Assembly (NCBI GenBank): GCA_003135495.1
Contig: PLBX01000291.1
Location: forward strand, 1-10,348
Origin: Acidobacteriaceae bacterium
GTDB taxonomy: Bacteria > Acidobacteriota > Terriglobia > Terriglobales > Acidobacteriaceae
Direction: 5' to 3'
Length of the DNA: 10,348 nt
Position numbers and translations under genes: made by a program. Positions 1 to 6,943 of this stretch are shown here, in pieces. Numbering within the stretch: the first letter of the stretch is position 1; every line of letters starts with the position of its first letter. The notes under the pieces were generated by a model. The model was not told where the DNA came from. It ran no database searches and saw nothing but the letters and a program-made list of their open reading frames with translations.

Positions 1-1430
1 GAACGCGAGCCCGCGGCGTGGCGTAGTTCCTGGCGCAGCACCGCCGACTCGATTCCCAGTCGATGCGAGATCTCGTTGGCCCACTCGTCGCGCACAATGC
101 GGCTGGGCACGCGTTGAATGTGCGGCAGCAGATAATTCAAGGCCTTCACTTTGCCTTCGGGAGTGCGAGCGGGGAACAATGAACGCGAGCGCTCGATCAG
201 GTAATCGAAATATTTCTGTGAGTGGGAAAGCGCCTCGCCATATGTTGCTGCGCCCTTGCGCCGAATAAACAGGTCAGGATCGAAGCCGGCCTCCAGGGTG
301 AGAACCTTGATCTGGAACTCTTCGCTCACCAGCAGCGCCAGCGAACGCTCAGCCGCCGCGGCACCGGCGGTGTCGGGATCGAAATTCACCACGATGTTCT
401 TGCTGAAGCGTCCCAGCAGCCGCGCTTGCAACTCGGTGAACGCCGTGCCGGAACTGGCGATCACGTTGCGAAAGCCCGCGGTGTACACCGAGATGCAATC
501 CATCTGGCCTTCGACCACGATGGAGTAGTCGAGCTTACGAATCGCCTCTTTAGCATTGTCCAGATTGAAAAGCACTCGCGACTTCGAGTAGATCGGCGTC
601 TCCGGAGAATTCAGATATTTTGGGCCCGCCTTCTCGTCGGTAGCAAGCGTGCGCGCGGTGAAGCCAATGACCTTTCCTTGATCGTTGCAGATCGGAAACA
701 TGACACGATTGCGGAACTTAGAGTAGATAGCGGCCGGCTGCGAGGTACGCGCTTCTGGCTGCGGGCCAGCACTACCCCCAAACTTGTCATCCTGAGCGGA
801 GCGAAGGACCTGCTTTTGCCGAGAGCTGACAGCTGACGGCTGAGCGCTGCTCTCCTTCCACGAGAACAGCCCGCTCTCCCGCAACAGCTCTTCATCAAAC
901 TCGCGTCGTAGCGCATCTCGCAGCAGGAATCCGGAATCCGGCGCATAGCCGATGCGAAAGCGATCAATCATCTCCGCATCCAGGCCGCGTCCTTTTAGAT
1001 ACTCGCGGGCAGTCGCGCCTTCGGGACGCCGCAGGCATTCTTGAAAGAACGCGGTCGCGCGAACATGCACATCGAGCAACGCCATCCGAACCTGAGCGTC
1101 GCGAGCCTCCGCCGGACTGGAAAAACTGACCTTCGGCATCGGCACGCCCAGCTTGTGCGCAACCAGGCGAAGAGCCTCCGGGAATGTGATGTTCTCGACT
1201 TTCTGAACGAAAGTGAATACATCGCCCGACTCTCCACACCCAAAACAATGAAAAAATTGCCGCGTAGCATGCACCGAAAACGACGGCGTCTTCTCGGGAT
1301 GAAACGGGCACAGCCCGGAAAAATTCTGCGCCCCCGCCTTCCGCAGCTTGACGTAATCGCCCACAATGCGGACGATGTCCGCCTGCTGCTTGAGCGACTC
1401 TTTGAAGTTATCGGAAGAAGTCGAGTTCAT
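1..1430 (-). CDS. dnaG: DNA primase DnaG, N-terminal 476 residues (3' end outside window)
   Basis: DnaG synthesises the RNA primers for chromosome replication, acting with the replicative helicase at the fork. Reading from the ATG at 1428-1430 gives one uninterrupted frame of 476 codons that runs off the left edge. The N-terminal CHC2 zinc finger is visible (C41, H44, C62, C65, in CPFH and CFGC). It is followed by the RNA-polymerase core with RNRVMFPI near 240-247 and KYLNSPET near 271-278. The TOPRIM motifs are VVEGQMD (E308, D311) and NFDPDTAG (D351, D353). The helicase-binding C-terminus is missing because the window ends. About 45 residues (roughly 192-236) sit between the end of the N-terminal core and YSKFRNRVMFPI, where E. 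coli has only about ten. This insert is Ser/Gln/Ala-rich and includes VLRSAQDD, the translation of a dispersed repeat. Outside it the family motifs are intact, so the gene is probably functional. No clear Shine-Dalgarno site precedes the ATG. The start is chosen because it gives the normal distance to the zinc finger. Confidence 0.96.
   Translation of the reverse strand, partial: MNSTSSDNFKESLKQQADIVRIVGDYVKLRKAGAQNFSGLCPFHPEKTPSFSVHATRQFFHCFGCGESGDVFTFVQKVENITFPEALRLVAHKLGVPMPKVSFSSPAEARDAQVRMALLDVHVRATAFFQECLRRPEGATAREYLKGRGLDAEMIDRFRIGYAPDSGFLLRDALRREFDEELLRESGLFSWKESSAQPSAVSSRQKQVLRSAQDDKFGGSAGPQPEARTSQPAAIYSKFRNRVMFPICNDQGKVIGFTARTLATDEKAGPKYLNSPETPIYSKSRVLFNLDNAKEAIRKLDYSIVVEGQMDCISVYTAGFRNVIASSGTAFTELQARLLGRFSKNIVVNFDPDTAGAAAAERSLALLVSEEFQIKVLTLEAGFDPDLFIRRKGAATYGEALSHSQKYFDYLIERSRSLFPARTPEGKVKALNYLLPHIQRVPSRIVRDEWANEISHRLGIESAVLRQELRHAAGSR
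785..844 (+). repeat. Dispersed repeat copy inside dnaG, with adjoining heptamer tandem repeat
   Basis: Positions 785-812 read TGTCATCCTGAGCGGAGCGA followed by AGGACCTG. The same unit, diverged, occurs at 1623-1640, inverted at 1776-1793 and inverted at 8261-8286. Next to it AGCTGAC is repeated at 824-830 and 831-837, followed by the related GGCTGAG at 838-844. The whole stretch lies in frame within dnaG, in the linker before the RNA-polymerase core motif. In dnaG orientation part of it is translated as VLRSAQDD. From general knowledge, both sequence types are common short dispersed sequences in acidobacterial genomes. The claim that this copy moved into the gene is inference. Confidence 0.75.
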
Positions 1431-1571
1431 TGGAGGTGCACACTGCTTCAGTAGTGATTATGAGGGCTGAAGGAGCTGGCGGAATATAGCTTTGATGGTA
1501 TTGCTGTGGGAAACGTGTGGATTACCAGCCTTGATCGTTCACGCCATTGGAAAAGTGCGCAGTTCTACTCA

Positions 1572-1854: not shown

Positions 1855-1900
1855 CAAAAAAACAAATGCGGCCCGGACCAGCCACCCAAGCCGCATTGTT
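1855..1900 (-). terminator. Intrinsic terminator, minus strand
   Basis: On the minus strand AACAATGCGGC (1900-1890) pairs with GCCGCATTTGTT (1872-1861), giving an 11-bp stem with one bulged base and a 17-nt loop. The 3' arm runs directly into seven T residues (plus-strand A-tract 1856-1862). This is a textbook Rho-independent terminator on the minus strand. The plus strand has no T-tract after the stem, so the direction is clear. It lies about 425 bp upstream of the dnaG start and no minus-strand protein gene precedes it. The transcript it ends is therefore probably the structured RNA proposed at 1855-2149. Confidence 0.75.
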
Positions 1901-2149
1901 ATCGCGGACGTTCTGACTGCTGTCTTTCGCCGAAGCGAAAGATCATCGCGCAACGTCGCTCCGAAGAGCGCCACGCGTCCGATGACACCCTCAAGCTCGC
2001 GCTTCAGGGTTATGATTCGGCATTTCCGTCTCTCTTTTCAGAAAGACGTCCGAGGAGGCCGCTAAGCCCGGGCACCAACGCACTGGACATGCGCCGATTT
2101 TTCCCCCGGTGATTCACTCTCGAGAAAATCACCGGCAACGCCGAATCAT
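1855..2149 (-). ncRNA. Candidate structured non-coding RNA, family not recognised
   Basis: Read on the minus strand, this segment is a chain of strong stems. A 12-bp closing helix pairs 2149-2138 with 2023-2012 (AUGAUUCGGCGU with AUGCCGAAUCAU). It encloses a 9-bp hairpin (2135-2106) and a hairpin with a GAAA loop (2048-2027). Next comes ACCCU/AGGGU with an inner AAGC/GCUU stem and a GCGA loop (2010-1987). Then a CGGACG/CGUCCG helix (1981-1976 with 1910-1905) encloses two hairpins capped by C(UUCG)G tetraloops (1970-1957 and 1941-1924). The intrinsic terminator follows. The tetraloops have their stable form only on the minus strand, in agreement with the terminator. I found no hallmarks of tmRNA, RNase P, SRP or 6S RNA. 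The 5' end and promoter are uncertain. GATAAT at 2216-2211 (minus) is a weak -10 candidate, which would make the transcript about 350 nt. Confidence 0.55.
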
Positions 2150-2366
2150 TGTCGCAGCAGTTTCAGAACATCTCACGCTTTGACTGAAGACACTTTGCTG
2201 CAGTTGAGAAATTATCGCAACCGCAAATTGCGGCTTCGTTGTGTAAAAACTGTGGAGCGGCGCAACTTCCTGTGGAAGGGAAAGGAAAAAGAGGGCTTTA
2301 TTCCCGTGGACCATTGTCGCGGCCTTTGATGTGGGTCGCCACCGTTTGCTGCCGTACAATACGCCA
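2150..2366. other. Intergenic region upstream of ruvA
   Basis: No protein gene can be supported here. The one clear local structure is the near-perfect palindrome CCGCAAATTGCGG at 2221-2233 (six-base arms around one A), which could be a protein-binding site. It lies about 135 bp upstream of ruvA and about 75 bp upstream of the start of the structured segment on the minus strand. No LexA-type box could be recognised. Confidence 0.4.
2355..2360 (+). promoter_or_regulatory. Possible -10 element of a leaderless ruvA transcript
   Basis: TACAAT at 2355-2360 resembles a sigma-70 -10 hexamer and ends six bases before the ruvA ATG. Transcription would then begin at or within a base or two of the start codon. 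There is no Shine-Dalgarno sequence between them, which fits a leaderless mRNA. No good -35 hexamer is found at 16-18 bp; TTGATG at 2326-2331 is 23 bp away. The assignment is tentative. Confidence 0.3.
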
Positions 2367-2951
2367 ATGATTGCGCACCTTCGCGGGAGCCTGCTGGCGA
2401 AACGCCCGAACCAGGCGATTGTTGAAGCTCACGGCGTGGGCTACGATGTCACCATCAGCGTGCCCACTTTTTCGGAGCTCCCGGCGACGGGCGCTGAAGT
2501 TGCCCTCCACATTCACACCCACGTTCGCGAAGACGCGCTAAGCCTCTACGGATTTCTGCGTCTTGGCGAAAAGCAACTTTTTGAAAAGCTGCTGACCGTG
2601 AGCGGAATCGGCCCGAAGCTGGCGATTACTATTCTTAGCGGGATGCCTGCCGATGAGATGGTTGGAGCGATTCGCGGTGGCGACCTGGCGCGGCTTACAC
2701 GCATTCCCGGAATCGGCAAAAAAACCGCGGAGCGCATGGTGCTCGAACTCCGAGACAAGCTGCCGGTGCAGTCTGGGTCGGAAACCGCTACAGCGCTTGC
2801 AACTCCTATGGAAGAAGACGTGGTTTCAGCCTTGGTGAATCTTGGATATCAACGTGCCGCAGCAGAAAAGGCTTTACAAGCAGTGCGCGGAAAAAATGCT
2901 CAGAGTTTTGAATTGTTGTTTCGCGAAGCGCTGGGCACGCTTTCGAAGTGA
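2367..2951 (+). CDS. ruvA: Holliday junction branch migration protein RuvA
   Basis: RuvA binds four-way DNA junctions as a tetramer and loads the RuvB motor for branch migration in recombinational repair. The 194-aa product starts MIAHLRGSLL, the normal RuvA N-terminus, and is close to the usual length of about 200. The OB-fold domain covers roughly 1-63 and contains VREDALSLYGF, with the acidic pin at E55 and D56. Two helix-hairpin-helix motifs follow: TVSGIGPKLA near 77-86 and RIPGIGKKTAERM near 112-124. The C-terminal RuvB-contacting three-helix domain is at about 148-194. An upstream in-frame GTG at 2331 would add twelve residues, but the ATG at 2367 matches family N-termini. Neither ruvB nor ruvC is next to it: downstream is a convergent unrelated gene. 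ruvA is therefore apparently transcribed alone here. Confidence 0.96.
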   Translation: MIAHLRGSLLAKRPNQAIVEAHGVGYDVTISVPTFSELPATGAEVALHIHTHVREDALSLYGFLRLGEKQLFEKLLTVSGIGPKLAITILSGMPADEMVGAIRGGDLARLTRIPGIGKKTAERMVLELRDKLPVQSGSETATALATPMEEDVVSALVNLGYQRAAAEKALQAVRGKNAQSFELLFREALGTLSK

Positions 2952-6791: not shown

Positions 6792-6809
6792 TTCCAGACT
6801 CAGTGGAGC

Positions 6810-6829
6810 GACGGGCGTCCCCGCCCGTC
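6810..6829. repeat. REP-like palindrome after nadD
   Basis: GACGGGCG (6810-6817) and CGCCCGTC (6822-6829) form a perfect 8-bp stem with a TCCC loop, starting 18 bp after the nadD stop. No T-tract follows on either strand, so an intrinsic terminator is unlikely. GC-rich palindromes of this kind are commonly dispersed between genes in bacteria. It could stabilise the 3' end of nadD mRNA or attenuate read-through into rsfS. Confidence 0.55.
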
Positions 6830-6943
6830 CAGCCTGCTAATCGTATTTATACAAAAGAAAACAACTCTGCCAATCGCTCCAGCCCGGCGGAAACCCAGCC
6901 AATCGCCGGTTTCAATTAATAAAGTTACAATCAATAAATACGT

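Follow-up and report, generated by a model that had tools for sequence, protein, structure and literature searches.

The window, by which we mean the whole stretch of 10,348 nucleotides analysed here, encodes on its minus strand a structured non-coding RNA of about 330 nt, one of a class that recurs in many genera of a soil phylum whose RNA biology is little known. The RNA has a covarying fold, ends in a terminator hairpin with a near-invariant loop, and lies downstream of a box arrangement that it has in common with replication genes. The reading we favour, at roughly even chances, is that it is an independently transcribed, trans-acting structured RNA of the family's DNA-replication regulon, and as such it may help tune chromosome copying. 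A first-pass annotation had proposed a lineage-specific, unclassified non-coding RNA with its own terminator at 1855..2149; homologues with covarying stems, the lack of an Rfam match, broken reading frames, and a conserved promoter-like element all uphold the proposal, although the interval starts too late and omits about 36 nt holding the 5′ strand of the outer helix P1. The RNA is also broader than was supposed, since a replication-type operator lies upstream and operator and hairpin occur together in 24 genus labels of one family. We place the 5′ end near 2185 because of the position of the promoter-like element, and the 3′ end near 1856 because of the U-run. The features, by window position, are these:

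3..1430, minus strand: dnaG (primase; TIGR01391), cut by the window edge; downstream of the RNA, same strand
1504..1523, minus strand: AATCCACACGTTTCCCACAG, similar boxes upstream of dnaG (compare L110)
1856..2185, minus strand: structured non-coding RNA, about 330 nt (homology, covariation, frame-breaking indels)
1861..1900, minus strand: terminator hairpin, then U-run to 1856; two-sided changes in alignments A1 and A5
1878..1884, minus strand: apical terminator loop UGGCUGG, 7 nt, near-invariant across loci
1903..1922, minus strand: P1, 3′ strand; pairs with 2155-2177
1924..1984, minus strand: P8/P9 region; a gap in the G015 row of the alignment
1941-1937/1928-1924, minus strand: P9, UUCG loop
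1984-1981/1947-1944, inner part 1970-1966/1961-1957, minus strand: P8, UUCG loop
1988..2009, minus strand: P7 hairpin, GCGA loop; seen in sequence and fold, with only 2 consensus pairs
2014..2147, minus strand: P2 domain, enclosing P3, P4, the conserved GCGGCCUCC segment, and P6
2147-2137/2024-2014, minus strand: P2, 11 pairs in the consensus
2135-2129/2112-2106, minus strand: P3, inside the P2 domain
2097-2089/2083-2075, minus strand: P4, inside the P2 domain
2062-2054, minus strand: conserved GCGGCCUCC segment, inside the P2 domain
2047-2041/2034-2028, minus strand: P6, GAAA loop, inside the P2 domain
2155..2177, minus strand: P1, 5′ strand; pairs with 1922-1903; strand co-evolution over genera
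2192..2220, minus strand: putative promoter, TTGCGA-N17-CAAAGT
2240..2278, minus strand: operator of three phased (T)CCACA/NCACA boxes, DnaA-box-like, upstream of the promoter-like element
2278-2270, minus strand: operator box 1, CTTCCACAG
2258-2250, minus strand: operator box 2, GCTCCACAG
2249-2240, minus strand: operator box 3, TTTTTACACA
2361..2951, plus strand: ruvA (TIGR00084), divergent from the RNA

The minus strand of 1850-2160 folds with a minimum free energy of -149.4 kcal/mol (z = -7.0) and the plus strand with z = -4.3, and for neither did any of 100 shuffles fold as well; since both strands beat their shuffles, the fold alone prefers the minus strand only by degree. The strand originally assigned is confirmed. 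The molecule is closed by P1 (2177-2163 with 1916-1903, plus 2160-2155 with 1922-1917), and the 12-bp helix first taken as the closing one exists as the inner P2. The hairpins described at the outset are present with their GAAA loop (about 2048-2027) and GCGA loop (2009-1988), as is the terminator with its T7 run (1900-1856); both C(UUCG)G hairpins are likewise in the sequence, but in the minimum-free-energy and consensus folds P8 encloses one while the second adjoins it, rather than a single helix enclosing the two. The tetraloops are not conserved in relatives and so are no hallmark of the RNA; conservation is strongest in the terminator loop UGGCUGG and in segments of which CGGCCU is an example.

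Compensatory change carries the structure. RNAalifold on 24 sequences gives 87 pairs, of which 36 show two-sided compensatory change; in a recount 95.7% of cells are paired and the covariation score is 0.251, against 0.196 for shuffled and at most 0.091 for slid controls, and none of 500 shuffles reaches any of five measures, these controls ignoring phylogeny and taking the structure from the same alignment. Two-sided changes are found in 6 of the 11 pairs of P2, 1 of 7 in P3, 4 of 9 in P4, 4 of 6 in P6, 1 of 2 in P7, 3 of 4 in P8, 3 of 5 in inner P8, and all 5 in P9; the GCCC/GGGC/GGCC core pairings of the P2 domain have none (0/7), being nearly invariant and so outside the reach of covariation. 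In the terminator they affect 6 of 17 pairs in A1 and 10 of 14 in the 69-row A5, where the percentage of pairing is partly by construction because rows were picked by the loop plus 8-10 of 12 pairing flanks (chance sites L057:6942 and L062:1368 were left out). Within the genus alignment P1 has two-sided changes in 2 of 11 pairs, with 93.5% of cells paired. Over genera its strands co-evolve: among the 53 of 58 loci usable (5 left out), pairing with the locus's own partner averages -24.6 kcal/mol and with the partners of other loci -19.6, a difference equalled in 0 of 5000 permutations over all loci, 0 of 5000 over the 33 loci outside the genus, and 8 of 5000 within it.

These results bear on the plainest alternative, that the locus is a chance fold, a repeat, or a coding region. 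The region is GC-rich and has short ORFs on both strands in the window (up to 106 amino acids across the RNA in single relatives), yet homologues, covariation, and frame-breaking indels contradict this explanation, and we leave it a very slim chance. Among homologous loci, most indels counted against the window have lengths not divisible by three, so no reading frame is kept; a coding region was rejected, in line with the early statement that no protein is encoded. The first reading of the locus, for which compensatory change, homologues in related genomes, and an Rfam comparison had been suggested as checks, is thus confirmed as real and more than chance by homologues, covariation, and shuffles. 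Separately, GC-rich inverted sequences resembling a repeat element (e.g. ATTCGCTTCGCGAAT) lie at 1600-1790 of the window, between the RNA and dnaG.

The RNA also matches no known family. The window against Rfam 15 (E up to 5) gave 2 matches, both away from the RNA locus; a 581-nt stretch (E up to 10) gave 5, all sub-threshold, the best being S10-Clostridia at 18 bits (cut-off 35.1, E 0.33); and 18 homologous loci gave one tRNA and two Acido-Lenti-1 matches, all outside the RNA (the RF01687 matches, near two of the loci, are L163:348-394 and L002:2086-2132). A CRISPR-DR29 match at 6805-6841 of the window lies below threshold (24.7 bits, cut-off 39) and is probably chance. Since no Rfam family reaches its gathering cut-off at the locus, tmRNA, RNase P, SRP, and 6S RNA stay set aside, as they were at first. 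Specifically, i) 6S RNA (RF00013) has no match at the locus, and the genome carries a genuine 6S, also a structured RNA with a gene of its own, at another position (G000:C421:14866-15054, 49.7 bits, over the cut-off); ii) bacterial class A RNase P RNA (RF00010) has no match at the locus and none in the window's own genome (75% complete), and is matched elsewhere in 36 of 46 genomes, 35 of them over the cut-off; and iii) ARAGORN finds 0 tmRNA or tRNA genes in the window, and Rfam has no tmRNA match. A search of open-licence literature, a weak test, turned up no description of this RNA among the titles listed. By these searches the class is new; in kind, we take it for a probable bacterial trans-RNA, unusual in its link to replication.

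A DNA search found the RNA in 23 of 24 genomes of the same genus (the window's own counted) and fragments in two other genera, for a total of 25 of 61 genomes; the exception within the genus, G011, was missed by this search and by the terminator model R2 alike. Scanning named genomes for the core pattern gave 60 loci, 50 of which match the model R1 at E < 1e-8 and bear the names Candidatus Sulfotelmatobacter, Acidobacteriaceae, Acidobacteriales, Terriglobia, or Acidobacteria MAGs; the other 10 (L057, L061, L064, L065, L068, L076, L090, L091, L098, L100), from scattered non-acidobacterial taxa, have no R1 match or E > 0.2 and were taken as chance. Class-wide, R1 matches 10 of 399 genomes and R2 matches 23, of which 17 have the UGGCUGG loop, all in one family, and 6 without the loop were set aside (G248, G362, G038, G070, G294, G391). 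Neither model spans the whole RNA, and both were run under strict filters with 8-11 candidates scored per genome, and the counts are too low, since later R2 scoring of up to 150 candidates per genome recovered the RNA in G034 and G465. No R2 match was obtained in genera g31 (G074), g35 (G154), g45 (G327), and g13 (G035).

Several members depart from the common form. G015 has a reduced RNA without P8-P9; that of G033 (L151), about 100 nt by eye, has lost the P2 domain and its internal CGGCC segment and keeps the operator, a P1-like pairing, and the UGGCUGG hairpin. In G036 the hairpin is present and the operator was not found, and in G095 UGGCUGG sits in an 8-nt loop with the sole operator match 683 nt away.

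The annotated placement between ruvA and dnaG is true of the window, but the RNA is not tied to either gene elsewhere. It precedes dnaG in part of the window's genus, and dnaB or other genes in other genomes: dnaB is among the two nearest downstream genes, on the same strand, in 25 of 58 loci; in 7 of the 58, rpoD is one of the two genes closest on the upstream side. In these neighbour counts many stretches are short or come from the window's genus, in which ruvA and dnaG adjoin. The full order dnaG-rpoD-RNA-dnaB occurs in L043, L046, and L066 (gene families checked for the first two). The same-strand position before dnaG or dnaB would suit a cis-acting leader or attenuator of the downstream gene, but which gene that is differs from genus to genus, a terminator hairpin closes the RNA about 425 nt short of dnaG in the window, and 9 of the 25 dnaB loci carry separate triple boxes for dnaB; we think such a cis role very improbable.

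The arrangement upstream of the RNA offers a clue to function that most orphan RNAs lack. All 58 RNA loci have the triple-box spacing (Markov null 0.0000). Upstream of the promoter-like element, loci keep TTTTCC..TTCCACA-N14-TCCACAG-TTCTGCACA or near variants. The promoter-like TTGCG-N17-CAnAGT is kept upstream of homologues, by eye with TTGCG and an AGTG-type hexamer constant and a diverging spacer; a simple sigma-70 scan misses the element at 2192..2220, from which transcription would presumably start. The two-box form TCCACA-N14-TCCACAG matches 47 times in 80 genomes of the family, whereas the reversed control matches 5 times. Of these, 30 were retrieved and classified: 18 are followed by the UGGCUGG hairpin, while the genes behind five others are a DnaC/IstB-like helicase loader, dnaE, parA (twice), and parB. 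The remaining seven precede unrelated genes or ORFs without a Pfam match (the latter at L141, L145, L154, L155, and L156) and speak, with the G036 and G095 loci, against the regulon reading; at L131 (PNPOx-like) and L140 (LolA-like) the boxes lie at least 450 nt from the unrelated genes. A related box motif matches 25 times in 41 genomes; 19 of these sites are at the RNA, and of the 6 others two precede loaders and one dnaG; at L120, L123, and L126 no replication gene was seen. The triple box is upstream of dnaB in 9 of 25 loci and missing from the other 16.

Individual sites may be recorded here: dnaB has its own triple CCACA operator at L043, L054, L055, L058, L066, L074, L081, L085, and L088; DnaC/IstB-like loader genes lie behind the same two boxes, 20 bp apart, at L104, L127, and L150, the last with a TTGCGC...CACAGT promoter-like pair upstream as well; and TCCACA-N14-TCCACAG precedes parB, dnaE, and parA genes at L128, L132, L133, and L149.

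The factor presumed to act on this operator is most likely DnaA, an assignment we base on the resemblance of the boxes, on an arrangement common to replication genes, and on boxes at dnaA loci. The boxes match the DnaA consensus only in part; the third fits TTWTNCACA, which we take to be that consensus. By eye, a TCCACA box stands just ahead of a conserved TGCTAGTAT-like motif in 8 of 20 dnaA loci, and a box ahead of dnaA is expected under DnaA autoregulation. The box arrangement by itself also offers a way to define a replication regulon in these bacteria that can be put to the test.

The phased, DnaA-box-like triple could instead act as DNA, as a box cluster that titrates DnaA or belongs to an origin, the transcript being only a by-product, and in keeping with this the RNA lies 5-72 kb from dnaA in G003, G015, G029, G356, and G425, where both are on one contig (in the other RNA-bearing genomes of the comparison they are on separate contigs). 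Such an element would leave the compensatory change in RNA structure unexplained, and the RNA is not at the GC-skew minimum in 180 kb of the 837-kb G015 contig or in 159 kb of G029, so that we regard the idea as decidedly improbable. A replication origin at the RNA finds no support: in the first 180 kb of G015:C12 the skew minimum is near 105 kb, with the RNA at 43 kb and dnaA at 73 kb, while G029:C15 shows no skew minimum at the RNA in the 159 kb covered. Since about 30 kb separate dnaA from the minimum within the 180 kb of G015:C12 (L202-L210), this genome may have its origin at some place other than dnaA.

UGGCUGG with a pairing stem is found in 57 of 58 distinct loci, and the one remaining, L060, is truncated by the end of its stretch but complete in the duplicate L015. 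Compensatory changes vary the terminator stem while the loop stays constant, and because terminator loops have no evident reason for such constancy, the loop is probably a working end of the RNA. The RTGGCTGGY...TTTNTT pattern (downstream stem half only) has many matches in 25 genomes, and among the matches listed the RNA locus stands out. The one loop variant, CGGCUGG, lies outside the 58-locus set in a terminator-like hairpin of G028 (L249, contig C93), a possible diverged member. Pairing of the loop with the internal CGGCC, for which 5 pairs are possible by eye, was set aside, both sides being near-invariant and the segment being absent from L151; dnaB mRNA was rejected as a target, the loop complement occurring in 0 of 25 dnaB leaders.

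Of 34 genomes that bear the RNA, 11 do have the complement CCAGCC[AG] in the dnaA leader, at 28-38 nt before the start codon (CCAGCCA in 6 genomes, and CCAGCCG, with one G-U pair, in 5), these 11 leaders being related rather than independent. The dnaA-leader set comprised 42 loci, with no leader from G437, G412, and G031. In 9 of the 11 the complement has a mean unpaired probability of at least 0.76; it was found in 0 of 4 leaders from genomes without an R2 match (G035, G074, G154, G327), a contrast drawn from four leaders only, three of seven genomes at first taken to lack the RNA having since matched a model, which weakens it. The leaders concerned are L186, L187, L189, L190, L192, L196, L220, L221, L222, L227, and L232, and the complement in them is usually a hairpin loop whose stem differs between genera. 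The dnaA on G000:C484 (L194), among the 34 leaders, resembles that of other genera and not of the window's genus, a possible binning error. Because the window's genus lacks the complement (0 of 5 leaders, one of them truncated), as do most other genera with the RNA, dnaA is no general target, and as a universal one it is unsupported in the window's genus; judged by leader sequences, it is a candidate target for only some members of the family.

Alternatively, a protein, perhaps one of replication or one that binds RNA, may recognise the body and UGGCUGG as a scaffold or decoy, by a logic like that of 6S RNA and with no mRNA pairing. The large multibranch body and the invariant segments inside P2 go beyond the needs of a simple antisense RNA, and the loop is kept even where no mRNA complement is found, which together make this a possibility to be taken seriously, if well short of probable; against it, the reduced L151 has lost the P2 domain yet keeps loop and operator, and no protein partner is indicated.

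For the trans-acting regulon RNA that we prefer, the following steps may be envisaged: i) a replication-linked transcription factor, most likely DnaA, would bind the triple box; ii) the same factor would set transcription of the RNA together with that of dnaB, the helicase loader, and others, genes at which the box arrangement is observed; iii) the RNA would fold into the P1-closed multibranch body that covariation supports; iv) this body would present the 3′ terminator hairpin, with its loop probably exposed; v) the loop would pair with an mRNA or bind a protein; and vi) in several genera a likely partner would be the hairpin loop that precedes the dnaA start by about 30 nt, a candidate route for feedback on DnaA synthesis. 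A more specific proposal, rather unlikely in our estimation, is a DnaA-controlled feedback RNA with a DnaA-box promoter, in which UGGCUGG kisses the CCAGCC[AG] hairpin of the dnaA leader (7 bp) and thereby links DnaA activity to DnaA synthesis, the same loop serving other replication targets in other genera. If the regulon reading is right, a lineage distant from both Caulobacter and Rhizobia has a replication regulon with an RNA arm.

Among known systems, raiA/ModT RNA is likewise a conserved, structured class of trans-RNA, reported from other phyla (Bacillota), whereas no Rfam family exceeds its cut-off here (PMC11706538). For the mode of action proposed above, the closest working analogue would be EcpR1 and the second CcnA, both as functional comparisons. 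EcpR1 is an sRNA of the Rhizobiales whose conserved GC-rich loop pairs with dnaA mRNA and represses dnaA, so that a conserved loop and a link to replication control make up the functional likeness; it has 101- and 142-nt forms and the motif UCCGCCGCAUCU, whereas the RNA described here has about 330 nt and UGGCUGG, and belongs to a different lineage (PMC4414408). CcnA, a cell-cycle ncRNA of Caulobacter proposed to act on 5′ UTRs, is similar in presumably being activated by a replication-linked regulator; it is located at the origin and tied to CtrA, whereas our RNA lies off the skew minimum in the stretches examined (PMC8959179).
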